Positions 17,011-58,140 of a stretch of DNA of 64,000 nt are shown in pieces. Below the pieces are notes generated by a model. The model was given only the letters and a program-made list of their open reading frames with translations. It made no database searches and was not told the origin of the DNA. Source of the stretch: Hawksworthiomyces lignivorus (taxonomy: Eukaryota; Ascomycota; Sordariomycetes; Ophiostomatales; Ophiostomataceae). Location of the stretch: contig NTMA01000008.1 of the NCBI GenBank assembly GCA_002917075.1, positions 930,001-994,000 of the forward strand, given 5' to 3'. Each line of letters begins with the position of its first letter. Within the stretch, counting starts at the first letter, position 1. The translations under genes were made by a program, and so were the position numbers.

Positions 17011-18006
17011 GATGGGCGAGTTTGGCGACTTTTAAAGTAAATCTGCGCAGGGAGAGAAGAGCAGCGTCGCTGGGTTTGATATAGATCTTCTATATGAATC
17101 TGATCATAAGCCTCCGAGACAGATAATGTCGGCGATTAGCTTTTGTGGCTCGCCGATCAATTTCGCCGCAAGCCTCACCGGGTATCAGCCACCGAGTTCC
17201 ATACCGACTACCGGGTAGCCGCACGGAGTTAGTTACAGTGCCGCGTAGGTCCCCTTTTCAATCTACTAATACCGCGCAAACCCTGAGCATGTTTCATATT
17301 TAGGCGGCTTTACTGTGAGATGGTATCCGAGGTTCATTTACTGGTTGGTATTTGCTGGGTGTAAGGGAAAAAGTTTCTGCTTCATAGGTGCCGAAAAAAT
17401 TAGTGCGTCGTCTAGGCACTTGAAGCGCTGTACAGCTTCTTGAAATGCTTCGCTGGCTTCTGTAATTTCCATCCGCAGCGTACTATTCTTAGTCATCGGT
17501 TCTAACTACCATTTTCTTTTCTTTTTTTTTTCGGCCTTGCAAGAAAAAAAAGTTTCTTTTAATACTGAATGGCCCACGAAATAAATCTTCTCATCTCCTT
17601 CTTTGTCACGGAGTTTTTCTTCAGCTGAAGAGCCTTCAATTTGATTTTGTATATAGCAATTGTATATCTTCTCGCTCTCACAACAAATTACCAGACTTGT
17701 TAGTCTTGCTGCGATTCACATTGATAGATTAAGCCCACTTTTGCTTGTCTTCTTCTGGCAAGCTCAATTGGTGAGCAGCGAGCCAAGGAGGCAACTTTTA
17801 CAGGGCACTACACCTCATTCGGTAGTGCCGAAAAGCTTTTTTATCCTCTAAGAAATGAGAGCTCGTGCCATTGCGCAATCTCATTGACGGATTCCGGCCT
17901 AGTCTCAGCAGAGCTTCTCGACATTTTTTTCTTGGGGTTTATTTACCTCCTCTCTCCCTCTTCCAAGGAGACAAACACGCGCCTCTCGTCCATCTTTACA
18001 GCAAAC
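17011..18006. promoter_or_regulatory. Bidirectional promoter, sulfide-oxidation pair
   Basis: About 1 kb of non-coding DNA separates two divergent sulfide-metabolism genes. It contains T/A-rich tracts (17515-17552) and a long pyrimidine-rich leader before the SQR start (17930-18000). The short ORFs within it have no support. Joint regulation of the pair is inferred from the arrangement. Confidence 0.45.
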
Positions 18007-19371
18007 ATGTTCCGCACCCGCCCCGCATCGGCAGCTCGCGCTGCAGCGCGGCCATTCCTCGCGACGCCGGCAGTTCAGGCGCGGCGCAATTTTGCCGCAG
18101 AGGCCGCGCCGGTGACCTCGACGACCAGGAACCACAAGGTCGTGCTGGTGGGCGCCGGCAGCGCCGGGCTGTCCATCGGCCACCAGCTGCTCTTCTCAGG
18201 CCAGTTTGCGCAAGACGATATTGCCGTTGTCGATCCGGCGACGCTGCACCACTACCAGCCGGGGTGGACGCTGGTAGGCGGCGGCCTCAAGACCAAGCAG
18301 GAGCTGCAGAGCCGGCTGGACGGCCTGGTCGACCCCAAGCTCAAGTTCTACAACGAGGGCGTGCGCGCCTTTGCGCCCGAGGCCAACTATGTGACGTTGG
18401 CAAACGGCGACAAGATCGGCTACGAGCAGCTGGTCGTGGTGCCCGGCATCCACATCGACTACAGCAGCATCGCCGGCCTGCCCGAGGCCCTCGCCGACCC
18501 CCGCTCCCTCGTGTCGACCGTCTACGGCTACGAGACCTGCGACAAGGTCTTCCGCACCGTCGAGGCGCTCGAGAAGGGGACCGCCATCTTCACGCAGCCC
18601 GCCGGCGTCATCAAGTGCGCGGGCGCCCCGCAAAAGGTCATGTGGCTGGCGCTGGACCACTGGCGCCGCGCCGGCCTGTACACGCCCGGCACCCCCGCGT
18701 CGTCGCCCATCAAGATCACCTTCGCCACAGGGCTGCCCACTATGTTCGGCGTGCCCAAATACAGCGCCGAGCTGGAGAAGCTGCGGCAGGCGCGCGGCGT
18801 CGAGGGCCTGTTCGAGCACGACCTCGTCGCCGTCGACGGCAGCACGGCCGTGTTTGCGCGCCCCGGCGGCAAGGACAAGGTCGCGCGCAAGTTTGACCTT
18901 CTGCATGCCGTGCCCAAGATGGGCCCGCACGCCTTTGTTAAGAGCAGCGCGCTGGCCAACGCGGCCGGCTACGTCGACGTCGACGACACCACCACGCGCC
19001 ACAAGAAGTTCGCCAACGTCTGGTCTGCCGGCGACGCCTCCAGCCTGCCCACGTCCAAGACGGCCGCCGCCATCACGTCGCAGGCGCCCGTGCTGGTGCG
19101 CAACCTGCTGGACGCGATGCAGGGCAAGCCGCCCGCCGCCCTGTATGACGGCTACACGTCGTGCCCGCTGCTGACCGAGTACGGCAAGGTCATGCTGGCC
19201 GAGTTCAAGTACGGCGGCGAGCCCAAGGAGACGTTTGGCGACTGGCTCGGCATCGACCAGGCCGTGCCCCGCCGCGCCTTCTACCACCTCAAGAAGGACT
19301 TCTTCCCGTGGGTGTACTACAACTACATGGTCAAGGGCACCTGGGGCGGCCCGCAGGGCTGGATCAGGTAG
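18007..19371 (+). CDS. Mitochondrial sulfide:quinone oxidoreductase (SQR/HMT2/SQOR family)
   Basis: Single exon, 454 aa, starting at ATG 18007 (AAACATGT). The N-terminus (1-35) is Arg/Ala/Ser-rich and amphipathic, a typical mitochondrial presequence. FAD Rossmann motif VVLVGAGSAGLSIG (45-58) and HHYQPGWTLVGGG (81-93) follow. The redox-active cysteines lie in VIKCAGAPQK (C204) and YTSCPLL (C386), with a third Cys at 178; WSAGDAS (339-345) contacts FAD. The C-terminal amphipathic helices (FFPWVYYNYMVKG) suit monotopic inner-membrane binding. Reaction: H2S is oxidised to a persulfide passed to glutathione or a similar acceptor, with electrons going to ubiquinone. The divergent neighbour encodes a persulfide-dioxygenase-like enzyme, the next step. 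Codon use is extremely GC-rich at third positions compared with both flanks. Confidence 0.93.
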   Translation: MFRTRPASAARAAARPFLATPAVQARRNFAAEAAPVTSTTRNHKVVLVGAGSAGLSIGHQLLFSGQFAQDDIAVVDPATLHHYQPGWTLVGGGLKTKQELQSRLDGLVDPKLKFYNEGVRAFAPEANYVTLANGDKIGYEQLVVVPGIHIDYSSIAGLPEALADPRSLVSTVYGYETCDKVFRTVEALEKGTAIFTQPAGVIKCAGAPQKVMWLALDHWRRAGLYTPGTPASSPIKITFATGLPTMFGVPKYSAELEKLRQARGVEGLFEHDLVAVDGSTAVFARPGGKDKVARKFDLLHAVPKMGPHAFVKSSALANAAGYVDVDDTTTRHKKFANVWSAGDASSLPTSKTAAAITSQAPVLVRNLLDAMQGKPPAALYDGYTSCPLLTEYGKVMLAEFKYGGEPKETFGDWLGIDQAVPRRAFYHLKKDFFPWVYYNYMVKGTWGGPQGWIR

Positions 19372-27411: not shown

Positions 27412-29123
27412 CAAGCTGTTATCATGTAGGCCTATCTTCATTCGCTGAAGGCGGCAGGGTTCCCTTCACAATTTGGGTTCATGGAATTAGTTGTCCTAAT
27501 TTCATTTATCTTGATACAACACGAAAGATTTCGGCGGTGAGTTGGGCTTCATGCTATAGTGGAATTAAGTGGATCTATGTGGTACTGTGGTAGTACTGAG
27601 AAAAGGAAAACAGTAAAATGATTACAGCTGCATCATGTGCAGTAGACGCTCCTCGCATACCAGCACTTCAAAATTCTATGTGGAGAGATAACGAATGTTG
27701 CCAAAAATGCATAGCCTCAAGTGGGCGGCGAAGCAGACAGCAGCTTAAAGCATGATGGGGTAATGCTCTCATCGTCGCCTGCCTCGCCAGATCTATCTTC
27801 ATCAATTGGGTAAAAAACCTTTGAGGCTATCCGTATCAAAAGACCTTTGCAAGTTAAAGACGTTGAGATACAGGTAGAACATCGCACTTGATAATTCTCA
27901 GAGAAGCAACCCACTGCAGCTAGTCAAAGTCAATAGTCTTTGAGCAAGCCAAAACTTCTTTCGCATATGCGCTGAAGCTAGTATAAGTAAGTTTTAATGT
28001 TAAGTACTGAAGCATACCAAGAATCAGAAAGTCATTGATTCAAATATATTAGGAGAGACTTGTTTCATTGGATTGTCTTGTGAAAAGGTGCTTGAAACAG
28101 AATTTCTGAGAAATGATGACTGGAAGGATCAAAATTCGGCTAGGGAAAAAAAATCGATGTTCCCAGACCAAAAAAAATAATGTAACTACTTCTTAAAGCA
28201 GCCCTATATGTAGCTAACTAAAGTATTTAATGGTTGCATGTACAATTTATGGTTTTAGGCGTCCTGGGCGCTGACGTATTTAATTGAGAAACTAAACAGT
28301 CGGGGTGAATAAATATCTTCGAGGTTCGTGCGGAAACAAACTATTACATGGCACCCTAATTGGTGAATACTAATATTTTCATGTCGCACGGAGCACATCT
28401 GAGACATAAGAGCAGATGAAAAAGTGGTTCTGTAATAGTGTGGATATTGGGACAGCTTGGGGCCAAGGCAGAAAAGACCTCAACAATAAGCAGTTCACAG
28501 CATATCTCAAAGGGCGCGAAAATCTTCAGGCAACTGATCAGACACAAGGTCCTGCTGCCTAATAGGCCCTGATGACGGAAGACAACCGGTCCCGTCAAAC
28601 TCCTCGTAGTCCGAGGACAGCATCCGAGACGGTGGTGAGCCCCAATCTTGTTAACTATGTAAGATACCTCTGTTCTCTGTGGCGTTGCTCGGGGGTCGGC
28701 ATTAACTCAGCATAAATCTCATCCTCCCGAAGCAGAAATCAGGCATCTCCGCCATCGGTGCTCGGGCTTTACGTGCGCGGAAAACGACCCTGACCCCCTT
28801 TTGGCTGAGTGTGGATATCGCTGAGGAGGCTGGCGAACCATGAGCCGCCGTCCATATGAGAAGTGGGTCGGATTCTTATCAGATCATCAGATAACAAAGA
28901 GCTTATGAGAAAGAAACGCCGACTCCGACTTGTCTTACAATTTTCTTCTCCGATCACCGAAAGGGCGCGACCAGAGCCTTAGAAGTTGGCTAGACAGCTC
29001 CATGTCTTGGGCCTTCTGATCCTCAATCCGAGTCACGACGGCGAAGCAAATGCGACCTCGACAGTCGCATCCCTATATCAAATTGATTCGCACCGCCACG
29101 GAAATCGATACGCGACCGATGTA
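27412..29123. other. Gene-poor spacer and promoter of large Zn2Cys6 gene
   Basis: AT-rich, with no supported gene to about 28600. It then turns gradually GC-richer into the regulator's leader. In-frame sequence upstream of 29124 is open to 28986 but contains no ATG. Confidence 0.5.
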
Positions 29124-32100
29124 ATGGCCGATATCATCGTTCCCCCCGCACCGCGACCGCCACGTAAACGCCGACGCCCAGCTGTGGTATGCGCCGAGTG
29201 TCGACGGCGCAAGATCGCCTGCGACCGCAAGTCGCCGTGCGGACAATGCGCACTGCACAATGTCGAATGCGTCTACGTAACGGGCGCCGTCCCCCCGCCT
29301 TATGGCCGGCCCGTTCGCAAAGCCACCGCTACCAGCCCCAGCTCGCAGCGAAGCCTTCCTCTCCCGACTCCAACAGCAACGGCGACGACAGCTTCCGGCA
29401 CGGGCCCGGGGAGCGGCGCAGGCAGCGGCGAGCCTCGGACGATCAACTCCCGTGCGACCTCTCCCTTGGCAGACGACGGACAGGCAGGCGACGACTCGCA
29501 CCCCGGCGTGTCGGTTATGGGCGAGCGGTCGCAGCGGTTTGGCGGCCGGCTGGCCAAGACGCGGTTCTTTGGGCGGACGCACTGGATGCACAACATGGAT
29601 GAGGTATGATGATTCCAGTTGCCCTTCTGCCCCCCTGCTGCAGCTTTGGCGACGGAGAGAGATGCGCTGACAAATCGCAGTTCAAAGACATCCACAGCAT
29701 GACGCACCTCGTCCACTTCGTCGGTAGCTCTCCCCTCTTCAAGGCGATGCGCAAGTGCAAACGAATCGCGCGCGCGATTAAAGAAGACGAGCGACAGCGC
29801 ATAAACGCCCCTGCCCGCGAGGGCGATCCCGACTGGTTCACACCGCCGCCGCGTGCCGAAGCCGACCGCCTGCTGGACCTGTACTTTAATGTCTTCGAGC
29901 CCGTCTTCCGCGTCCTGCACATGCCCACTTTTCGCAAGGAGTACCGACAATTTATGGACGAAGTAGAGGCGAATGGCGGGGTGGCACCCCGCAGCAGCGG
30001 CGGCGGCGCACCCCAGCACGACCGAGACGCGCCGGGCGACGTCTTCCAGGTGAAGCTGGTGCTGGTGCTTGCGCTCGGCAGCTGCTTCTACGACCCCCCC
30101 GAGGACAACCTCAGAAACCGGTCTGACAACCGGAGCGCAGCGAGCATCCCCACCACTCCAAACAGCCCTGGCACGGAGCCCGACACCTCCCTCCACGACT
30201 ACCTCCGCGTCGCCGCCGCTCGCGCCCTCCGCAAGATGGACGTCGCCTACTGCATGACGCTGAACAAGCACCGGCTCAACCTCGACATGATGCAGATCTT
30301 CTGCCTCGTCTCCATCGCCCGCCAGACCACGGCGCTCGAGACCGGTGACGACATCTCCTGGCTGCCGGCGGGCGCGCTGCTGCACTCGGCCATCATTATG
30401 GGCCTGAACCGCGACCCGTCCAACTTCAAGTCGCTGACGTTTGCGCAGGCCGAGCTGCGCCGCCGCCTGTGGGCCACCGTGCTGGAGCTGGTTATCCAGG
30501 CGAGCCTGGACCAGGGCATGCCGCCGCTGATCAGCGCCGACGACTACGACTGCGGGCCGCCGCTGAACCTCAACGACGACGACTTTGGCGGGGACGACGA
30601 CCCGCCAGCGACGCTCGACATTCACCCGGGCACAGGGGCAGGCAGCGGCGGCGGAGGAGGAGGCGGGAATGGGGGAGCGAGCGGGGACGGGGCCGCGGGC
30701 ATCACGTTCCGGCCGCCCAGCATGACGGGCCATCCCGACGCCGTCTTTACCCACACCAGCGTCCAGCGGCTGCTGTACCGGTCGCTGCCCGTGCGCCTGC
30801 AGATCATCCGCAGCCTCAACGGGCTGGGCACGGGGCTCACGTACGACCGCGCCCTGCAGCTGAGCAGCGACCTGCTGGAGGCGTGCCGCTACACGGCGAC
30901 GCTGCTCAAGACGGCGCCGCTGATGGCGGCCGCGCCCGGCGACGCCGCGTCCGGCCGCTTCCCGCCGCAGGAGCAGGCCGCCTTTGCGCGCCTGCGCATC
31001 GCCCTGTACGAGCTGCTGACGCGCCGCTTCCACCACTCGCTGCACTCGCCCTTTGCCCGCAAGGCCGCCGGCGACGTGCAGTACTTTTACTCGCGGCGCG
31101 CGCGCATCGAGACGGTCGTGCGCCTGCTGGCCTTCTTCCGCCCGCCGCCGCTGGCGTCCGCCGACTTCCGCGCGGGCCTGGAACAGCTGGACGGCGGCGA
31201 GGAGCTGGACGGCGGCAACTCGGCCTTCCGCCGGTACCAGCACCGGCGCCCCGTGCCGGCCGCCGTCGACCCCTGCCGGCGGCTGTGGCTGGTCGGCCGC
31301 GGGCTCATCAAGTGCGCCATTGTCGACTTCAAGGGCACCGCCACCATCGAGCTGGTGCACCAGCTGCTCGAGGACTACGTGCCGGGCGCCGACCTGACCC
31401 TGTCGCAGCGCGAGCTCTACGACACCATCGTCGCCGTCACCGAGCTGGCCCACGCCCGCATCCGCGAGGCCGGCGAGACCAACGTCAAGGGCTACCTCTT
31501 CTTCCGCGGCGCCCAGGCTCAGATCGACGCCCTCATGGAGGGCCGCCCCGTCCGCCAGACCATTGTCGAGGCCGCCCAGACCGCCGCCGAGCAGATGATC
31601 GACACCCTGCGCGGCCTCGCCGCCCGCAAGAACATTGCGCTGCCCGACGACCTGATCGGCGACGGTGACGGTGGAGACGGCGACGGCGGAGACGAGGACA
31701 GACAGGGCGTTGGCGCAGGCAACGGCAGCGGGGGCAACGGCGGCAGCAGCGGCAGCGGCGGCGGCAGCTGTGGCAAGACTGGCGGCGCCGGCTCCGACCC
31801 GCTGACCATCTCGCCGGTGGCCCTCCAGAACGGCGGCGCCGGCGGCGCGTCCTTGAAGCCGCCGCGCCACTACCACCACAACGTGCCGCAGACGACCACG
31901 GCAGCTTCTTCTCCGCACATTGGCGGCGGCATCGGAGGCGTGCTGCCGTTCCCCGACCTGGACATGGCGCAACCCCCCGCCGGCTCGGGCCTGGACGCGT
32001 CTGCTGACGTCGACCCGGGCATCCACCTGCCCACGCCAGACATCAGCGCCACTGGAAGCAGCAGCAACTTCAGCGGCATCAGCGGCGGCATCGGCGGCGC

Positions 32101-34223: not shown

Positions 34224-35110
34224 TTTTTGAGATTAGGCCTAGACAGAATAGGTGAAGCTTTGAGGAGACAAATAATTTTGAATAAGACGCGAAGAATCAA
34301 GAATAGAGAAAAGAACTTGAGAAAAACAAAATAAAGAAATAGGACTAGAAGAATACAAAACTTCGAGCAGTTGTGTAAAGAAGTCAGCTGAAAAGACGGA
34401 GATGAGCATGCAGCTCGTTCCCGATCTACGGAACGGTGGGAAGAAAAGGGGGGGCAGCAACTTGGCTGCTTCTTATGGGTGCCGCCTACAAGCCAGCTAA
34501 GGCTGCATCTTGTAGCTGGCCAGCAGGCTGCCAAGAAGAAGGCCACTACCAAAAGGCTCTCGGTGGGTCATTTTACCCGGGGCTAAATTTGCCGACTAAC
34601 ACCACTCGCTTCCGGTCGAATATCCCGCATCTTATCTCCGCGCCGACTTTCCTCATGCGATGCCATCTTATCAGATCCGCACATAAGTGGACCCCTCTGC
34701 TCAAGACTTCATCCTCTCGTCCTTTTTCGGATCCCTCGTCCTCGTGCTGCAAATGTTAACTTTTTCTGAACGTTGCTGGTCTTCAATCTCCTTTCTTAAA
34801 GACTACGTCTTCGGCTCTGCCAGTGCACGTGGCATGCTGAGAAGTTTTGTTTAACACCAAAGTAGTTGTATTCCTTAAATGACACATTGATTACTATGGA
34901 TGACATCCAACAGGTATCTAAGCCGGGGAGGGACATTATGAAGAGTGGAAAAGCAAGAAACAGCGTAAAGCCAATAAAGCAGAACCTTGAAACAGCCCGT
35001 AACATATAAAGCACTCAGGTACCCGCAAAGAGCAAAAGCAAGGAAAAGGAACGAGGAAGAATCACTCCAGTATTCTGCATGTAGACGACATTATCTCGCA
35101 CGACCCTTGC
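34224..35110. other. Flavoprotein promoter and Mtc1 3' flank
   Basis: An A-rich leader upstream of the flavoprotein start (34224-34370) and non-coding DNA to the Mtc1 stop. No gene supported. Confidence 0.5.
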
Positions 35111-36867
35111 TCAGATCAATCCAGCCCGCGCCGCCTCGCCGCCGCCGTCCTCGATGACGGCATCCATGCGCCGCTTGCCCTTGCCGATGCCGCCCTCGCC
35201 GACTCCCATGCGGCGGGCGACGTAGCGCTGGGCGACGACGCCGACGGCCAGGGTGAGCGTCTCTTCGAGCCACTCGGCGACCCACTCGCGGGGGTCGACA
35301 CCGCCGCTCTCAATGATATCGCGGATCTCCTCCGGCACGGCCGAGGATGCCAGCGCGGCGCCGGGCTCGCCGGCGTTGGTCTCTTCGTCGCTGGCGCCAC
35401 CGGTGCTCGAGGCGGGCGTCAGCGTGGCGGGCGTGTCTAGCCAGCGCAGCCACTTGGCCGGCAGGGTCTGGCTGACGGTGTGGTAGATGATCTCGTGGAC
35501 GGGGTCGAGCACGTAGACGCCAAAGCTGACGAGGGCGGCGTCGGCGTCGGACGCGGCGTCGTCCTCCTCCTCGCCGTCTTCCTTCGCCTCGTCAGCCGCC
35601 TGCTTGGCCGAGCCAGCGAACAGCTGCGGCCCCTGGGGGACGGAGATGGCCTGCACGGCCAGGAACAGGTCGGAGCGGCGGACGGGGTTCGATTCGGACA
35701 CGGGCTCAACCGCACGCCGGCGGGCCTCTTCCAGGCCGCCACCCTGGGCCGCGTAGTATTCGTGAGCGTACGCCTCGGCGCTCGCGCGGCACAGCTTGGT
35801 GCCCTCCTGCAGGCCTGACACGGCGCCCAGGTCGCGTGGGCTGTCGACGACGCGCCACCAGGGCCCGTCGCGCCAGCCTGCGGCCGACTGGTGGCCGCCG
35901 CCGAAAAAGGTCTGCCGCTCGGCCGTCGGCGAGCGCACGGCTGCCGTGTTCTCCTGGCCACGCTGGATGACGAGCAGGTCGCCACCCTCAACCTGGGCCA
36001 TGACGCGGGCGAAGACGCCGTGGACCAGCGGGTCAAGCGACGGGTAGCCGACCATGTCGTGCGTGATGTGGATGAGCAAGCGCTCGTGCGAGGCAATAGG
36101 CGGTGCGATGGTATGCAGGATGGTCGTGAACGTAGGGATGGCACGGTGGCGGAGCTCATCACCTGGAAAGGTAAGAGAGGCATAAAGTCAGCAGGAAGCA
36201 CTTTGATTGGAGCCATTTGCTTTCCAATAGGCCGTAAAAAGAGAAAATTATCCCTACCATATCCCCGCAGGGCAGAGTAGTTGCCGCGGACCTGGTCTGC
36301 CCACTTCTTGGCTTCCTCGTTCTGCTGGATCTCCTTAACAGCAGCCTCTGCCTGCTTCATTGCGGCCGAGGCAGTGGACAGAAAACCGCCCCACCAGCCG
36401 CCACTGCCGCCGGCAGATGCAGAGGCAGCTGCAGAAGAAGCAGAAGAAGACGAAGGAGCAGCGGCAGTGGCAGCCGCTGGATAGGCCTTTTCTTCTGTGC
36501 TCTTTCTCTCCACATCTGCCGACGCAGACTTGAAGCTCTCGCCGGACCGGCGTGGGAGAGCGGCATCCGAGGACCCGGCAACTGTCTTTCGTGCAGGCGA
36601 GCCCTTGATGCCGCCAGCACCGCCGGCAATGCCAACCCGCGGCGTGTGCGGTCGCGAGACGGGTTGCTTCTCCTCGAGCTCATTCTCCAGCTCGGCGAGG
36701 ATGTCCTTTTCGGGGTCGGCGGTAGCACCTCCCTTGCTGGCGGCGGACTTGGCCTTGGTGGTCTTTTTCTTCTCAGTGGTCTTGTCGGTGGCCTTCTCCT
36801 CGCCGATGCCCTCGAAGAGCTCGTCCAGCTCGTCGGTGGCGGCGTTCTTTGCTCGCTTGCTAGTCAT
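35111..36867 (-). CDS. MTC1: Maintenance of telomere capping protein 1 (Mtc1) family
   Basis: Two exons, complement(36258..36867, 35111..36162), 553 aa. The 95-nt phase-1 intron joins SALRGYG to DELRHRAIPTF. The start MTSKRAKNAATDELDELFEGIGE is the family's typical N-terminus. A low-complexity linker follows (Lys, Ser, Ala), then GWWGGFLSTASAAMKQAEAAVKEIQ and the globular part with HERLLIHITHDMVGYPSLDPLVHGVF, FLAVQAI, VYVLDPVH and VDPREWVAEWLEETLTLAVGVVAQRYVARRMG at the end. Known: yeast Mtc1 is a cytoplasmic, COPI-vesicle-associated protein whose loss affects cdc13-1 telomere-capping mutants; the molecular activity is unknown. Divergent from the AT-hook protein across a 1.3-kb spacer. Conserved core gene. 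Confidence 0.88.
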
Positions 36868-48562: not shown

Positions 48563-51500
48563 ATGCGCCTTCTACAAAGTGACGATAACGGCGAGATCAG
48601 CCTGAGAGAATTTCCTTTGGGAAATGTTCCTCCTTACGCCATACTCTCGCACACATGGGGCGAGGATGAAGTGACTTTCAAGGACTTGGCTGACGATGTA
48701 GAAAAGAAGGCAAAGGGGAAAGCAGGATACAATAAGATTTCGTTTTGCGCCGAGCAGGCTTGGCGCGACGGCTTCCAATACTTCTGGGTGGACTCGTGCT
48801 GCATCGACAAATCAAACACTGCAGAGCTCCAGGAATCTATTAATTCCATGTTTAGTTGGTATCGCAATGCGGCCGCCTGCTACGTTTACCTAGCTGACAT
48901 GTCTGTGTCTTCCGAGAGCGAAGCATCTGATCCACTGCGTTGGAAAGTGTCCTTCCGTAAATGTAGATGGTTTAAGCGTGGCTGGACACTTCAAGAACTC
49001 ATTGCTCCGAAATCGGTTGAATTCTTTTCGAAAGAAGGCCAGTATCTCGGAAACAAACTGTCTCTAGAGAAATATATCTGTGAGATAACCACGATTCCAG
49101 CTGAGGCTCTACAGATTGATCAAGATCTATCGATTTTCACTGTGGATGAGCGCATGGAATGGACGCAAGGTCGAGAAACAACGCGTGAAGAAGACACGGC
49201 CTACGCACTACTTGGTATCTTTGATGTTTTCCTACTGCCCATATACGGCGAGGGGAAAGAGAATGCTATGAAACGACTCCTGAAAGAAGTCGAAAAAAGT
49301 AACTTTTACACCTATTTCTAAAAGACCCTCTTAACGATCCTCACATACGGCTAAAGCAGACCTAACTAATATTTCTAAAACAACTAGAATTGCCACTCCA
49401 ACCATTTGCGTGGATTCCTTTTTCTCGTGAGCCCGACTTTGTTAATGGTAGGGAAATCCTCGATCAGATTCATCAGCTATGCTCCGAGCCAGGTGGCCGA
49501 GTTGCACTCGTAGGCTTGGGCGGCGTTGGCAAGTCGCAGCTCGCCATCGAATATGCTCATACCATTGCCGAGTCGAGCACTACCTGGGTATTCTGGGTCT
49601 GTGCAGGCTCCCAGGTGCGCGTTGAACAAGGCTTCAAGAGGATTGCCGATATCGTCAAGTTGGACGGACAAGACGACCCAAAAGCTGACATAATGCATCT
49701 TGTGCACGACTGGCTATCCGATGAGCGAAACGGTAGATGGATGATGGTTCTCGACAACGCCGACGACTGCGGCGTTGTCTATGATGGTGACGGTGACCAG
49801 CAACCATTTGCAACGTATCTGCCACAGAGCTCGAACGGAACCATAGTCATCACGACGCGCAACAGAGACCTGGCTCTCAAGCTGGCTGGACATCGCAATT
49901 GCATTTTAGACATCAGGCCAATGTCTTCGGTGGATTCTGTGACGCTCCTGGAGAAGAAGCTGGGGTCGACTCCGCGTCGAGATATGGCAATGGAGCTGGT
50001 TAGGGCGCTTGACCATCTTCCGCTAGCTATCAGCCAGGCTGCGGCGTATATAAAGGCAAGGACGCCACGAAGCTCCGTCGAAATGTATCTTCACAACCTT
50101 CGCGCGAACGAGGCTAAAAGAGCAAGGATTTTGGGGTATGATACTGACGCTACCTGCCGAGACCGCGAAATGTCAAACGCAATCTTTTCGACCTGGCAGA
50201 TATCATTCGATTACATACGATCCGAACGACATTCTGCGGCAGACCTTTTATCGCTGATGAGCTTTTTCGATACACAAGGAATCCCTGAGTGGATTCTTCA
50301 GTCTTTTGGATCTACCAAGAGTGGGAGACAACCTGGCAGCCTCGACACGGTTACGGATTATGCGACTAAAAGCGGCTTGAACGTGGGCGTAGGACCAGAT
50401 GGCGAGATTGCTACTGCGGACAGCGAATTTGAAGCCGACGTGACTATACTCAGGGATTACCATCTCATTAATATAGCAGACGGAGGTAACTCATTTGAAA
50501 TGCACAGGCTAGTGCAGCTGTGCACGAGAAGGTGGCTGAAGGCGCGTGGGAAACAGGACAAGTTCAAATACCAGTATATAGATCGGATGGTGGCATTATT
50601 TCCGACCAGGAAATACGAAAATTGGGCAGTATGTGAAGATCTTTTTGCGCATGTTCAACTGGCAGCCGATTACGAGCCTGATAAAAAGAAGATGAAAGAT
50701 TGGGCCACTCTGCTATGCAATGGGTGTTGGTATGCCAAATTACAAGGAAGACTAGCTGTTGCACAGCGACTAGCGAGAACGGCCCAGAAGACTTGCATAG
50801 AGAACCTGGAGAGAGACGACCCTCTAGCTATAGACTGTACACTATCTCTTGCTGTCGTACTTTCTGATCAGGGCTACCGGGAGGAGGCTGAGAAACTGAA
50901 AATGCAGGTGACGGAGATTTGCGGAACACCACTCGAAGCAGGTCGTCTTTATGCTCTACGAAACATAAATTATCTCGCTACAACGTATCTCAGTCAGGGC
51001 CGATGGAAGGAGGCCGAGAAGTTGCTGACACATGTGCTGGATGTTTATGCTGCACAGTTAGGAGCAAACCACCTTGATATCCAAAGAAGCAGATATAACC
51101 TTGCGTCGGCATACCTGTATCAAGGTCGATGGAAAGAGGCTGAAGACTTGTTTGTGCAAGTAGTGACATATCTTCAAGCTCTGTTTGGAAGATACCATCC
51201 CGACACACTAGATAGCATGAATGCTCTTGCGGTGGTCTATAGGGACCAGGGACGATTACAAGAGGCTGAGAAGATACTCACTCATACGATGGGGGCTTAT
51301 CAGTTAACGCTAGGGAGAGACCATCCTGACACATTGATGAGCAAGAACAATCTTGCTTCGATATATCTGGGTCAAGAACGGTGGGAAGAGGCTGAGAAGC
51401 TTTTTACTCAAGTGACAAAATCTTGCAAGGAAACGCTGGGAGCAGACCATCCATCTACATTAACAAGCATGAATAACCTTGTAACAACTTACGCGTCTCA

Positions 51501-51768
51501 GGGACGGTTTAAGGAAGCCGACGTGCTAGGAATGCATGTAATGGAGACTCGCAAGACGAAACTTGGTACGGAGCATCCCTCAACGCTGAGAAGCATGAGC
51601 AGTCTTGCCATTGTCTGGAATTGCCAAGGCCGCTCTGCAGATGCTTTAGCGTTAATGGAGGATTGTGCCTTGCTTTGTCGGCAAAAGCTAGGCACAGAAC
51701 ATCCAGTCACTTTATCATCTGAGGCTACAATGGAGGAATGGTCCTTGAGCAGCCACGCCAATCTCTGA
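48563..51768 (+). CDS. HET-NB-ARC-TPR NOD-like receptor
   Basis: Two exons, 48563..49298 and 49388..51768 (1038 aa). The 89-nt phase-1 intron has branch CTAACTAAT. The N-terminal HET domain (1-240) has AILSHTWGEDEVTF, FWVDSCCIDK, SMFSWYRNAAACYVYLAD and RGWTLQELIAP. The NB-ARC domain follows with P-loop VGLGGVGKSQLA (287-298), Walker B-like WMMVLDNADD (363-372), a TTRNRD sensor and DHLPLAISQAAAYI. A winged-helix part with FDTQGIPEWIL and DYHLINIADGGNSFEMHRLVQ comes next. The C-terminus has about six 42-residue TPR_10/12 repeats (about 760-1020) built on LA..Y..QGRWKEAEKL and LG.DHPDTL. Known: HET-NLRs trigger regulated cell death in fungal self/non-self recognition. All three modules look intact. 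The ligand-binding TPRs are mutually similar, as expected for repeats that vary by recombination. Confidence 0.93.
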
Positions 51769-52171
51769 TATTATCCTTATATTTACAGCTTATCTCCTTG
51801 AAATTATAATATGAGGCTTCAACAGCAGTCTGACTCGAGAAGAAAACTTGAACTACAACACGACCAAGGGAACTTATGATGCATCTCGAGGCAAGGTCAG
51901 GAATCACTAGTAGATGAAATAATTTCTTTTTCTGTGCGAATCTGCGTTCAACAGGCGGATTCTAAAAAGCCGGTGTGGGCTATAGCCTCTCTTATGAGCT
52001 TTGGTTAGTCGAAAAATGCTAAGATTAAGTAATAATTGATTCAAATTATCATAAACTGTCTGCATATACAGGTGAATATTATTTAGAAATTGGTTGAGCT
52101 GATAACTAGCTGCGCACTTTCTTATCTCCATTGTCATATTGCCGAATAAGAAAATCCCCTGGAATGAAACG
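51769..52171. other. 3' flanks of convergent NLR and HET genes
   Basis: AT-rich non-coding DNA between the two stops. No supported gene. Confidence 0.55.
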
Positions 52172-54542
52172 TTATTTTACTCTAAAGTACTTGTACTGCC
52201 ATTTTGGTTTAAATGAGTTAGGCTTCTTGGAATAGTAGATGAAACCAATACCAACCCGGCTTGAAATGCTATCTCGTGTGGCGAGGCCTAACAGAATTGT
52301 TTGAGTGTCAGGCGGCTTAGTGATTGTATCAGCTGCAACTATAGCAACAAGCTCATCTACTAAGCTAGCTTCACCGTCGAAGCGAAATTGTCCATGGTGA
52401 GAGGACACTTGCAAATCTGCAATACGTTGGCTGCTTGTATATTGGAGAGAAAACTCGCTGAGCGGCAGATATGGCCCATGAAAGCAAAGTTCCCCGCTGA
52501 GGAGATTTGGCGGTACCTGGCACCTGGAACGTTCTAGTATTAGATCGATATCGATGCCGGTACGATGGCTCAAGTAGTCCTTTGCACGATGGAGCTGGTC
52601 TGATTTTTGCTTCCCATCATTGTCCCCAATATTTTGCGAGGTATTCCAAATGTCTTGGCTCCAGAAGTTTTGGTTTGATTCTCCGTAATTCCAGTAAGGT
52701 ATGAGCACGTATATGGGTACACGTTTAATTGGAGCTTGTGAAATATTTCTAGAGAGCCAAAGGCTATCAGCAAACACAAATTCGACCGGTCCAACCCATG
52801 AAACCCTGAAATCAATAGATTAGCAACTTGATACACAAAATATGATAGTTTCAAGCTGAGAAAGCGCACCATGACCATGAGGAGAACCGTTCAACTGCAG
52901 CTCCTGACTGGACAGGTGTGCAAACACGTTTCCGAGAGCCATCTGATGGAAACCAAAGAATAGCCTGAAACAAGAGATGGCTTGGGATGCCTTGTGTTTG
53001 TTGAATATTCTGAGACGGGACATTTCCAGCGCGATCAAAGCGGTTAAAGATACCTCCGAACGCGTGCAATACATCTTGTGTAAATGTAAGATTTTTTCTG
53101 CTATAGTCTTGAACCGCTGTCTGGTAATCGTGAATATCTAATCGCTTATTTTCTCCTCCAAGGTAGTGGTATGGTGTCGGATCAGGGTCCTTTCTGAGTT
53201 TCGAACTCCACCACGGTGGCCCTGTTCGGACTTGGACGTCTAAGCCTCTGCGTTTTTCGTATATGCAATCATAGGCTTCCCTCCATTGAACTTCAGGACA
53301 ATTAAAAAATGTTTCTTCGGCTGTGAAGTAAAGGCACCTCTGGGACAAGCATCCTTCTTGAAACGTCCATCCCCTAGTATTCCATGTCGAGCACCGCACC
53401 CGTTCACCAAGTGACGGCGGACAAAGCGAGAGACTCAGCTGTGTGTCGTCTACTCGATTTGTTATCTTGACGGGTTGGAGTGGGTAACCAGTACGTGGAC
53501 TAATTCCATTTAGTCCAGCATCGGCATCGTGTCCGGCAGCGGCAATAATGGTTAACGCAGCGTTGTCGTAGACCTCATCCATTCTTCCGATGAGTCTTGA
53601 TTTATCTTCCAAATCATCTTGGATGATATATAGCGTGTCTACCCAAAGGTGCCTGATTCCAATCTTCCGAGCCAGTTCCATGGCGTCACGGACGGTACGG
53701 GGAATTTTCCCGCTCAGGAGGTGAGATTGTTGCGGACTTGACAGAGCCCCAGGAATTTCGAGGTCATCGACATTATCTCGAACTGTGAGAAGGACCGGGG
53801 TTATTCTAGAATCATTGCCTGGGAAAAGTATTGTGGGAATGCTGCCCCAGACATAAGACAAGGCCACATAGTCGCATTTTTTGAATTTCTGCACCAAGCA
53901 CCCATCTATCACATCAATAAGCCGGAAAGGATATTCTGGCTCAAAGAGGCTGCAATCGCCTTGGTCAGCGGCCTTTGAATGACGGTGCGTTTTACACTCT
54001 TTAAGCCAGGTTTTCACTAATGAAATATTCGCTCTCTCTCCAACGTCACGCCGTGAGAGGAAAACAGTCTCGCTTGGAAAAGTGGGTGTCGAGGCAGTTG
54101 GCAAAGACTCAATTTCTGCGAATATAAAACGGTCCTTGACACGATCGATCTCTCTCAGCGGTGCACGGTTACGATGAAAATTTGGAGGCTCTAGGTCAGT
54201 CGCTAGAAGGAGGCGAGGCTGAGGGTATTCAGTATAGCCATCCTCTTTAACAGACAGCGGACTTCGACTCTGGATAAAGAGTTTAGGTGGAGGGCTTGTT
54301 TCCGAGCAAAGTCTGGCAGAATTCCATGTATCCCCCCAAGAATGGGAGATAGCCTGTGAAATGAGATCACAGAACGGGCAGAGACTGTGGTTGAAGTTAG
54401 AGAGAGATCCCATACGTCTTTCATTTCTTTCGCCACGAAACAGATCCTCTAGATCCAGCTCTTCGCAAGCACTGCATAGCTGCATATGAAGGCTCAAATT
54501 CGGACGAGTAGCATCCTCGGCAACGTCGCCTAGTAGATACAT
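52172..54542 (-). CDS. HET-domain heterokaryon incompatibility protein
   Basis: Two exons, complement(52870..54542, 52172..52805), 768 aa. The 64-nt phase-2 intron joins FSSWSW to VSWVGPVEF, the usual SWSW..W.G block of this class. An N-terminal Cys pair region (LCSACEELDLEDLF and LCPFCDLI) is typical of HET proteins of this layout. The HET domain runs from DYVALSYVWG (about 224) through KIPRTVRDAMELARKIGIRHLWVDTLYIIQDD, MDEVYDNAALTIIAAAG and NTRGWTFQEGCLS to QWRE. The C-terminal 250 residues are a variable region with no named domain. Known: HET domains mediate cell death upon fusion of incompatible strains. It converges on the NLR gene and is divergent from the next gene. TLYIIQDD has Leu-Tyr where most members read SLCI.Q; otherwise it looks intact. 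Confidence 0.9.
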
Positions 54543-55298
54543 TTGTGAAGCTTCTCTGTTCTGAATCTGTCAATACTACATAGACTAAAGCAAATATCAA
54601 ATCGAAAATGAAGCGAGCTAGAGTTATATGGCATAAAGAACCCATTCCTAATAACACTTTGCTGTAGTGGAGAAAATGAAGTTTTCTTGTGCAAGAAGCT
54701 GTTGATGCCCAACTCTCAAAACAGGGACGCTAGATAACAAAGATCAAACTTAATAGGATAGGCCTTATGCTAGTCTCCCGGCAGGCAGCAGCTGAATGAA
54801 CTAGTTCAGGAAAATATCGACATGGGTGTCATAAATCATAAGAAAATATTCATGGCTGGTGAGAGCTGAAAGACTAATTTAGGAAATGGATCACCAATGG
54901 ATTTCCAATTTATGACGTGCGCGATCGACAACAGAAAAAGTAAGACTATTTTTGTTAACCCAAAGCTGATGGACATGCTTCAAACACACAAATAAGATTT
55001 GCTTAATTCAACACTTTCTCGAAACCCGCGTCTAGTATACACAGATCCATTTGCGTCACATATTGGAAAAGCTTGTCGTGTTTGATAGGTAAATTAGCAG
55101 GCCGTTGTCGATAAAGCGAGATAGTCAAACGAAGCCTATTGAAACTTCTTTTTAGTTGACTCTGACAAGAATTACATTAGTAAATGATCGAAACAGAGTA
55201 AAGGCATCGCAAATTAAGTTAAAACTAGCCGTCTTTGTCGAAGCTTAGGTTTGCTGCAAACTGTCAACCAACTCTGCCACCCGGGACAAACTACACAA
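54543..55298. promoter_or_regulatory. Divergent promoter, HET protein / nucleotidyltransferase-like protein
   Basis: About 750 bp of AT-rich DNA between the two divergent start codons. No gene supported. A shared promoter could couple the two genes (inference). Confidence 0.4.
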
Positions 55299-57215
55299 AT
55301 GGCTTCAAAAGAATCTTCAAGTTCGTCCAAAGGTCTAATACCACCGGTATTTCACATTGTTGATGCTCGGAGACTGGAGCAAATAAGGGAATATATTCCT
55401 CTGCGCAGTGGACCGTCGCCCGCTACCCCAGTGCCTCCGTCTCAATTTCTTTCTTATATTTCGAGCCAACCCAATACTTCAACACGCGATTTAGTGAAGG
55501 ATTTTCTTGAATACGAGACTTGGCTGCGGAGAAAATTCGCAAAGAATGATGGCGGAGTTGATGGCGTTGCAGGACTCGTTCCAATCTATGCTGGCCAGGA
55601 AAACTTGCTCAAGATCAGGACAATCGACCGTCTTATAACAGATGACCAGAAATATTTGATGAGGAGGCCAAAAGGTAACCTTGAAAAGGACGGTGATCCA
55701 GCTATTGCACCAACTCTGTATCAGTTTACAAAAAACTTCGAGCACTTCACACATGGTCAGTCAATTTTTCAAATTGTAAAATTCTCGGTACTCGCTAACC
55801 TTATGATGCGGGCTGCAGGTATTCTGGCAGATATTAGTACGTGATGACTGCATTTTAACTCTTGGATTTCATATTTTATGACGTTTACCAAATGAGAAAC
55901 AAACTAGATTGGTCCAATGTTGTCGTCGCTGGGTCTGCCGCGCTTCTCCCTCTACTCTCGTTTCGAAAGGATGTTAGAATTAAATACCATCAAGATGTCG
56001 AAATATCAACAGAGACATATTATCAGTAAGCTAATTCCATGTTCATTAACCAAGATAGGTATTAACTTGTGCTTTTTTTAGAACAATCGCACGTTCGAGT
56101 GACATCGATATATTCCTCTACGGACTTGAGAGCGAAGACGTAGCAATTCAACGCATTCTTGAAATAGAGGCTTCTGTGCGGAAGAAGCAACGCTTAGATT
56201 TCGGAGATGCTTTGTGTCTACGATCTGAAAATGCCATTACTTTTATATCACCAAGATGGCCTTTTAGACATGTTCAAGTAAATAAGACGCGAAATATATG
56301 TGTCTATATGCTATGAATCTTCCTAACAAGACTCAAATGATAGATCATTCTCAGGTTATACAAGTCTATCAGTGAGATATTGACTGGGTTCGATGTCGAC
56401 TGTGCCTGTGTTGCGTTTGATGGGAGCCAAGTTTATGCAAATCCCCGAAGCATCACGGCCATAGCAACGCGCACCAATACTATTGATCTCAGTCGCCGGA
56501 GTCCATGTAAGTGAAATTTTCAACTAGAATCCGAGTGTCATATTTAACAAGCCGCTATAAGCATATGAAAATCGATTGTGGAAGTACCGAAACCAGAACT
56601 TTGATGTGTTCTGCGAGTCTCTTGATCGGTCGCAAATCCAACGACAATTCAACTTTGGGGATATTCGTAATCTTCAAGGTCTCGCTAGACTTCTCTACTC
56701 TGAATGGTGGCTCGCGGAAGCCGATTACCGCCCGTACGTCCTAAAACGCTTTCTTAAGAAATTCGACGACAGCGGCGAGCCAGCTCTCACCCCAAGCAGT
56801 GGGTATGCGAGTCATGATATTCCCTATGGTGAGAGATTTACTGCTGCCAAGTATGTGCAATAGAATCCAATACTTCATACCCTTGAGGCATCACAGCCTT
56901 AAGCTCATCGACTTGTGAAACATTAGAGTCCGCACGTATGTCGAGAAGCATTCTCGGGAGCCTTATTTGTTCGGTGCAATCCAGGAAATTGTCGAACATG
57001 GTGCGAAATCGAGCAAAAATTCAAGGCTGGTTGGTAAAGTCACATTCCTAAAAGACGATCCAGGACGTCAGATGATTGGGAGCTTTTATCCAATTAGCAG
57101 TGACAATTGGTAAGACACCATCTTCTTGATGGTTTAACATTTTTTCCCCCTCCTGGCTAATGATCATCGTTGTTAATCATCTTTACACAGGACAAAAATG
57201 GCGTATGAGAAGTAG
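55299..57215 (+). CDS. Fungal accessory protein with nucleotidyltransferase-like motifs
   Basis: Eight exons: 55299..55755, 55819..55836, 55908..56025, 56082..56277, 56344..56506, 56562..56850, 56927..57109, 57191..57215 (482 aa). All intron phases agree; one exon is only 18 nt. It matches a fungal family usually annotated by its downstream ankyrin repeats, recognised by SDIDIFLYGL, IILRLYKSISEILTGFDVDC and SPSYENRLWKYR. Here there are no ankyrin repeats: the chain ends soon after YLFGAIQEIVEHG. VVVAGSA (G167-S168) followed about 37 residues later by D205-I-D207 resembles the hG[GS]..DhD signature of the polymerase-beta nucleotidyltransferase fold (inference). Probably cytosolic; function unknown. 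It is divergent from the HET gene and tail to tail with the RNase T1-like gene. Confidence 0.8.
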
Positions 57216-57461
57216 CCTATATGAAATGAGAGATCAAAGACAAGCACATGAGTAAGAAATAGTTTGTTGAAAACAATGACGAAGCAGGGCATGTAGTATA
57301 GAATGAAAGCATCAAGTATTTGAAAGCAAAGTGATGTTGAATTCACATATGTTTACTTCAAAATTAAAAAAATGCGTTTGTAGCTTGTATTCAAACTGCT
57401 GAATTTACTACTGAAAATTATGTTCCATACACTAGGTAGCTACGATTGCATATCATATTGC

Positions 57462-58140
57462 TTAATTGTATTCATACCACGGCAGCTTAACATCCTCTGG
57501 TGCCAGCGTGTCCCGGCCCTCTGGTGCTCGCGTCCGCTCATAATCTGCCTTGTTTGTGATCTTGCACTCGATAAACTTGTCGTTTTTGGTGCCGTTGTGC
57601 GTAATGGTAGCACAGTAGACGGCAGAAGAGTAGTCAGAAGCAACGGATCCGATGACCTGAACAGTCAGTTACAGTAGCTACAAAAGAGAATAGAGGCCAA
57701 GGCGAAAAAAATCCAGCCTTACAATGCGGTCGGCACCTGGGCTGCCATCGCCGTCGTAGACGGAGCCGTTGTTCATAATAGGAAACTCAAAGTACGGCTT
57801 CTCGGCGTGAGAGAATTTGAACCTTTCGTAATCTGGAGGGGATTGTCAGACACTATGGGATCTTAGATGGCACGGGGACTTGAGATTAGAAGGCGAATCA
57901 CCATTGTACGCATGCGGGTATTTGTCGCGGCCAATCTGTCTGCCCTCACTAGCCAGCGTCATGGCTTGCACACAGGCGTCATGGATGGCCTCGCGGTCGT
58001 ACGATGACCGGCCATCGCAGTCGCAGCCATGAGGCTCATAGTCTAAGAACGTCAGAAGAAAATAACGGACTTAAGGATACAGGAAGCTGTAATCCTAGAC
58101 TACACATACAAATGGTAAAACCGTTGCTAGAGTCAGTCAT
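57462..58140 (-). CDS. RNase T1/N1-family guanyl-specific ribonuclease without signal peptide
   Basis: Four exons, complement(58110..58140, 57902..58042, 57723..57832, 57462..57656), 158 aa. All phases fit, with introns of 66-69 nt. The spliced chain matches the microbial ribonuclease (N1/T1/F1) fold: YPHAYND (Y52, H54), PYFEFPI (E73), GSPGADR (R93) and ATITHNG (H114). These correspond to T1 Tyr38, His40, Glu58, Arg77 and His92, so the whole catalytic set is present. Cysteines at 17, 19, 34, 109 and 125. A 30-residue tail follows the fold. The N-terminus (MTDSSNGFTIYY) is hydrophilic, and a stop lies just upstream in the leader, so unlike secreted RNase T1 it appears to stay inside the cell, unless an unseen 5' exon exists. 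It may be a regulated cytotoxic RNase or domesticated effector (inference). Confidence 0.82.

Follow-up and report, generated by a model that had tools for sequence, protein, structure and literature searches.

A HET-domain gene and a nucleotidyltransferase-like gene form a recurrent pair in fungi: a candidate two-gene cell-death module in Hawksworthiomyces lignivorus

HET domains are among the most numerous fungal domains, and their working and control are openly called a gap in passages of two accounts (PMC10197012, PMC10890737), the first of which reports that other HET domains trigger cell death. The closest described system is the het-B locus of Podospora anserina, where a HET gene (Bh, a HET-lectin) lies beside a partner from a nucleotide-handling family (Bp, PII-like). 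According to PMC10890737, HET/PII-like clustering of the het-B type is kept in 28 of the 31 taxa having both, with variable orientation; some of the HET lineages so paired bear a PSWSW-motif domain, and TOL and PIN-C likewise combine HET with a PSWSW-type region. Here, we describe a similar arrangement in a 64,000-nucleotide window (positions 930,001 to 994,000 of contig NTMA01000008.1, C170 in our numbering) of the 43.7-Mb genome of H. lignivorus: a gene for a HET-domain protein, HET2, and a divergently transcribed gene for a nucleotidyltransferase (NTase)-like protein, flanked by genes for a HET-NB-ARC-TPR receptor (hereafter NLR) and a T1-type guanyl ribonuclease (RNase). The partner of HET2 is a 503-amino-acid protein with a predicted nucleotidyltransferase fold, whereas that of het-B is a PII-like protein of 115-132 amino acids. 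HET-C, the partner of PIN-C, is not known to be an NTase.

Homologue searches with the NTase-like protein and with HET2 return the same contigs. They gave 380 and 1145 matches, respectively, the closest HET2 match being 66% identical over 98%, and our comparisons rest on the best 120 of each. Twenty-seven of 119 NTase rows sit on a contig of exactly the size of a HET2 row's contig (P0096, whose contig size is absent among the listed HET2 rows, was left out), and wherever the organism is named (26 cases), it is identical. Ten of the matching contigs fall below 500 kb, and one measures 4,506 bases. Jittered contig sizes produced a mean of 0.17 chance matches and a maximum of 2, a test that addresses coincidence of size and leaves adjacency on long contigs aside. 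That the two genes are adjacent is shown by gene tags that are consecutive, or nearly so: NTase and HET2 tags follow each other under matching organism names in four cases (Monosporascus MG133, Parahypoxylon, Cephalotrichum, and Botrytis byssoidea), DL765_002889 and DL765_002890 are consecutive with an equal prefix and differing organism labels, and a single gene separates the two tags in Sclerotinia nivalis. Carriers of the pair include Xylogone, Daldinia, Hypoxylon, Annulohypoxylon, Podospora, Cryphonectria, Hirsutella, Aspergillus, and the basidiomycete-labelled Gyrodon lividus; across Aspergillus, Botrytis/Sclerotinia, Hirsutella, Cryphonectria, Podospora, and xylarialean fungi, identity to the window proteins is 41-63% for the NTase-like protein and 42-66% for HET2. 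Among the largely ankyrin-bearing or metagenomic NTase rows P0062-P0120 (58 compared), the sole match to a HET2 contig is the 4.5-kb one, and 34 rows among the first 61, including 12 with the name Xylaria, have no linked HET2 among the best 120 of the 1145 HET2 matches.

The recurrent adjacency that defines a two-gene cluster is thus seen in tags and on short contigs, and the gene trees agree. Maximum-likelihood trees, one per gene, were built for 27 linked pairs and the window pair, with the short metagenomic pair left out. They have 13 of 25 splits in common, where 2,000 label permutations gave 0.25 on average and never more than 4, and the HET2 and NTase distances correlate with an r of 0.84, a value equalled in none of 10,000 permutations. 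Such permutations ignore kinship, and common species history accounts for part of the agreement. Less easily explained in this way are the duplicated pairs of D. bambusicola and D. caldariorum, two in each species, whose copies 1 and 2 fall into matching, separate clades of both trees, and the pair of Gyrodon lividus. In the latter (P0003 and P0158), both proteins share 76% identity with their counterparts in the ascomycete Xylogone, which suggests that the two genes were transferred together; alternatively, the Gyrodon pair may be an assembly contamination. In each of the two trees, the window pair groups with that of Cryphonectria parasitica.

HET2 matches the Pfam HET model (PF06985) with 103.1 bits (cut-off, 22.5), which places it among HET-domain proteins, and its C-terminal region carries an SSWSW motif, the feature by which it is likened to TOL and PIN-C. 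Its next-best match inside its own genome is 42% identical over 167 residues. The protein retains 93 of 94 conserved columns, the sole departure being Tyr305 (window positions 53628-53630, minus strand), a HET-motif position occupied by Cys in 70 of 72 homologues; Tyr305 may be the mark of an altered executor. The structure model of a relative, P0157, is confident (pLDDT 89.8) and found no usable match in the PDB.

The NTase-like protein itself matched no NTase model of Pfam at E ≤ 5. Five of 77 relatives weakly match Polbeta (best E, 5.4e-4), and the structure model of a relative displays an NTase-like fold, pointing to a polymerase-beta-type nucleotidyltransferase. The G, the S, the DxD, and a second DxD are conserved among the relatives; GS and DxD are present in 25 of 26 HET2-linked rows (the remaining one has a gap) and in the window protein, which retains 94 of 98 conserved columns. 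GS and DxD are spaced by about 37 residues, longer than usual for the polymerase-beta-type superfamily. The 77 relatives matched nine PADLOC families at E ≤ 1, with no CD-NTase family among them, arguing against a CD-NTase of the CBASS type, and the protein has no PII match in Pfam, which distinguishes it from the PII-like partners of the het-B type. A CCA-like match weakly favors an RNA or protein acceptor over a cyclase of the CD-NTase type. Of note, the homologues P0009 and P0054, both from Daldinia, run on into a kinase-like region (seen by eye in P0009 and below the Pfam cut-off in P0054), either a third module gene or a gene-model fusion.

Our working hypothesis, which we hold with moderate confidence, is that HET2 and the NTase-like protein form a two-gene module of regulated cell death, with the NTase as the dedicated controller of HET2. 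It rests on intact genes, a head-to-head layout in this genome, recurrent linkage, largely congruent trees, a predicted NTase-type fold, and conserved catalytic-type residues; from these we infer cell death, the direction of control, and the substrate. HET2 would be the executor, acting through its TIR-like HET domain, and the divergently transcribed NTase would be its dedicated partner, sensing or marking a non-self or stress state and, via its nucleotidyltransferase domain, either keeping HET2 off or turning it on. With the genes side by side, killer and controller would be inherited, and perhaps transferred, jointly. In bacteria, the CBASS CD-NTase-effector operons, MenAT, and MNT-HEPN encode a polymerase-beta-type NTase beside a killer protein or its antidote, an arrangement that the predicted NTase/HET2 pair would resemble. 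Production of a nucleotide messenger, nucleotidylation of HET2, and tailing of tRNA are candidate chemistries, and it is a tentative, rather doubtful extension that one of these gates the TIR-like HET executor in a eukaryotic counterpart of the CBASS/MNT modules, derived from a fungal NTase family, that moves as a pair from fungus to fungus. We modelled the logic of controller and executor, by analogy, on fungal two-gene death clusters, as presented in passages of PMC10197012, and on the HET/PII-like pair of het-B, as presented in those of PMC10890737. According to PMC10197012 and PMC12881547, controller and executor of fungal death likewise stand side by side in the protease-gasdermin and nwd2/het-S clusters; the executors there are gasdermin and HeLo, however, and the controllers are a protease and an NLR.

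The pair looks undescribed: its kind, a HET protein with a linked partner, is already known, and the NTase partner appears to be new. A search of the open literature, with subscription papers and bioRxiv outside its scope, found no paper on a HET-nucleotidyltransferase pair; PMC8195603, considered as a possible account of one, is unrelated judging by its passages, and the NLR passages of PMC9815663 and PMC4986451 contain no nucleotidyl- terms. With this recurrent pair, one HET family has a dedicated partner of predicted enzymatic activity, so that two genes suffice for a direct test of how a HET executor is controlled. Should the NTase prove active, nucleotide chemistry would become an arm of self/non-self recognition in fungi, comparable to the NTase defence modules of bacteria.

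Two other explanations of the linkage deserve consideration. The genes might be neighbours by descent, without joint function, in accessory regions that are shuffled or exchanged as blocks. The patchy distribution of the pair fits this micro-synteny, and so does the crowding of HET genes: the genome holds at least 207 HET loci, 61 of them of NLR type (150 scored PF06985 loci, from 351 candidates, plus 57 further NLR-type HET N-termini), and 22 of the 207 have another HET gene at 1.2-5 kb, where 7.3 are expected. We nevertheless find it rather unlikely, since the pair is kept across the fungi compared above at the identities given there and persists through duplications, whereas the neighbouring RNase does not follow. 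Slightly less credible still is that the NTase serves as guardee or decoy, a relative of a parasite-targeted ankyrin NTase that HET2 watches, killing upon its alteration, with catalysis incidental. The catalytic-type residues are equally strict in linked and ankyrin rows, and a mere decoy would not need them, even though the genome retains a second, ankyrin-bearing NTase relative (repeats seen by eye) without a HET link among the matches listed, and passages of PMC9815663 ascribe a guard logic to HET-E and HET-C.

The flanking NLR and RNase are probably bystanders to the pair. The NLR matches HET with 57.1 bits (first exon; cut-off, 22.5), NB-ARC with 42.6 bits, and TPR_10 with 216.6 bits, and its translation holds the Walker A sequence GLGGVGKS; it thus has the N-terminal effector, NB-ARC, and repeats of a fungal NLR. 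With 69 of 264 candidates scored, its HET N-terminus has at least 61 genomic matches, counting the NLR itself. Of the 51 NB-ARC loci, 7 have a separate HET gene no more than 5 kb away, about three times the 2.4 expected if loci were scattered uniformly (binomial tail, 0.009), and the two genes may be convergent, divergent, or in tandem. The NLR and HET2 of the window are one such case, which by itself tells little about the locus. The adjacency of NLR and HET2 is therefore not peculiar to this locus and speaks for general crowding or a loose association of the families, not for this particular gene set.

The RNase matches Pfam Ribonuclease (PF00545) with 65.8 bits (cut-off, 24) and, aligned with RNase T1, retains residues at the YPH, E, R, and H positions, which we take to be catalytic; it would thus be a complete member of the T1 family. 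A hydropathy window, which is not a signal-peptide predictor, detected no hydrophobic start of the kind expected of a secreted T1 enzyme. The other T1 RNase of the genome (C168, L024) has a leader-like stretch and adjoins a gene that, by eye, we presume to be AA9-like. Thirty-five relatives of the window RNase (P0121-P0155) were found in ascomycetes and some basidiomycetes. In 19, an IYYEP-type motif begins within 10 residues of the start, without a strongly hydrophobic leader, and the others are fragments or have different starts; the start of the window copy resembles the former, with a slightly different motif that falls outside the search pattern. A similar C-terminal tail (R/K-x-L-L/I-x-x-I-D/E-L type) occurs in 22 of the 35 and is absent from the window copy. 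Most of the relatives come from fungi that are absent from the listed carriers of the pair, and since linkage to the pair occurs in 1 of 35 rows, on a Xylogone contig of 5.5 Mb, the RNase appears as a widespread leaderless family whose membership of the locus is unsupported. How a cell tolerates a cytosolic guanyl RNase from a leaderless T1-type family that seems catalytically complete is a puzzle in its own right.

The initial annotation had read all four genes as one defence locus of sensor and executors, and such an island, with the NLR sensing and HET2 and the RNase executing, is very improbable: adjacency in this genome, the excess of NLR-HET neighbours, and the NTase, HET2, and RNase relatives of Xylogone on a contig of one size are outweighed by the single RNase linkage, by RNase relatives in Lasallia, Collybiopsis, and Exidia, outside the listed pair carriers, and by an NLR-HET arrangement that varies from place to place in the genome. 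The HET2/NTase linkage recurs widely, and the four-gene locus shrinks to a two-gene module: the linkage anticipated in other genomes holds for HET2 and the GS-DxD protein in many ascomycetes and is seen on a single row for the RNase, whose suggested part as a killer component finds no support.

The gene calls of that annotation stand. The four adjacent genes (Table 1) have intact models with open frames, rebuilt from the sequence, and all 11 introns are GT-AG; the introns were picked by visual inspection of splice signals and reading frame, and the models are thus predictions from sequence. The receptor and the second HET protein are confirmed by their Pfam scores and, for the former, TPRs; the GS...DxD protein is a likely nucleotidyltransferase by its relatives' Polbeta matches and modelled fold, and the guanyl RNase is predicted to be catalytically complete by its family score and T1 alignment. 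The NLR and HET2 genes are tail-to-tail, as are the NTase and RNase genes, and the interval between the HET2 and NTase start codons is presumed to be a shared, bidirectional promoter region.

Table 1. Gene models and intergenic interval of the locus, in window coordinates
Feature	Position	Strand	Details
HET-NLR (HET-NB-ARC-TPR)	48563-51768	+	1038 aa, 1 intron; exons 48563-49298, 49388-51768
HET2 (HET-domain protein)	54542-52172	-	768 aa, 1 intron; exons 54542-52870, 52805-52172
Interval separating HET2/NTase start codons	54543-55298		756 bp, from the two gene models
NTase-like protein	55299-57215	+	503 aa, 6 introns
NTase-like exons	55299-55836, 55908-56025, 56082-56277, 56344-56506, 56562-56850, 56927-57109, 57191-57215	+	gene model
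T1-type guanyl RNase	58140-57462	-	158 aa, 3 introns; exons 58140-58110, 58042-57902, 57832-57723, 57656-57462

Elsewhere in the window, the GC content in 1-kb bins reaches 63-73% at 18001-19000, 29001-32000, and 35001-36000, the other bins ranging from 40 to 63%, and long open frames lie inside these GC-rich bins.
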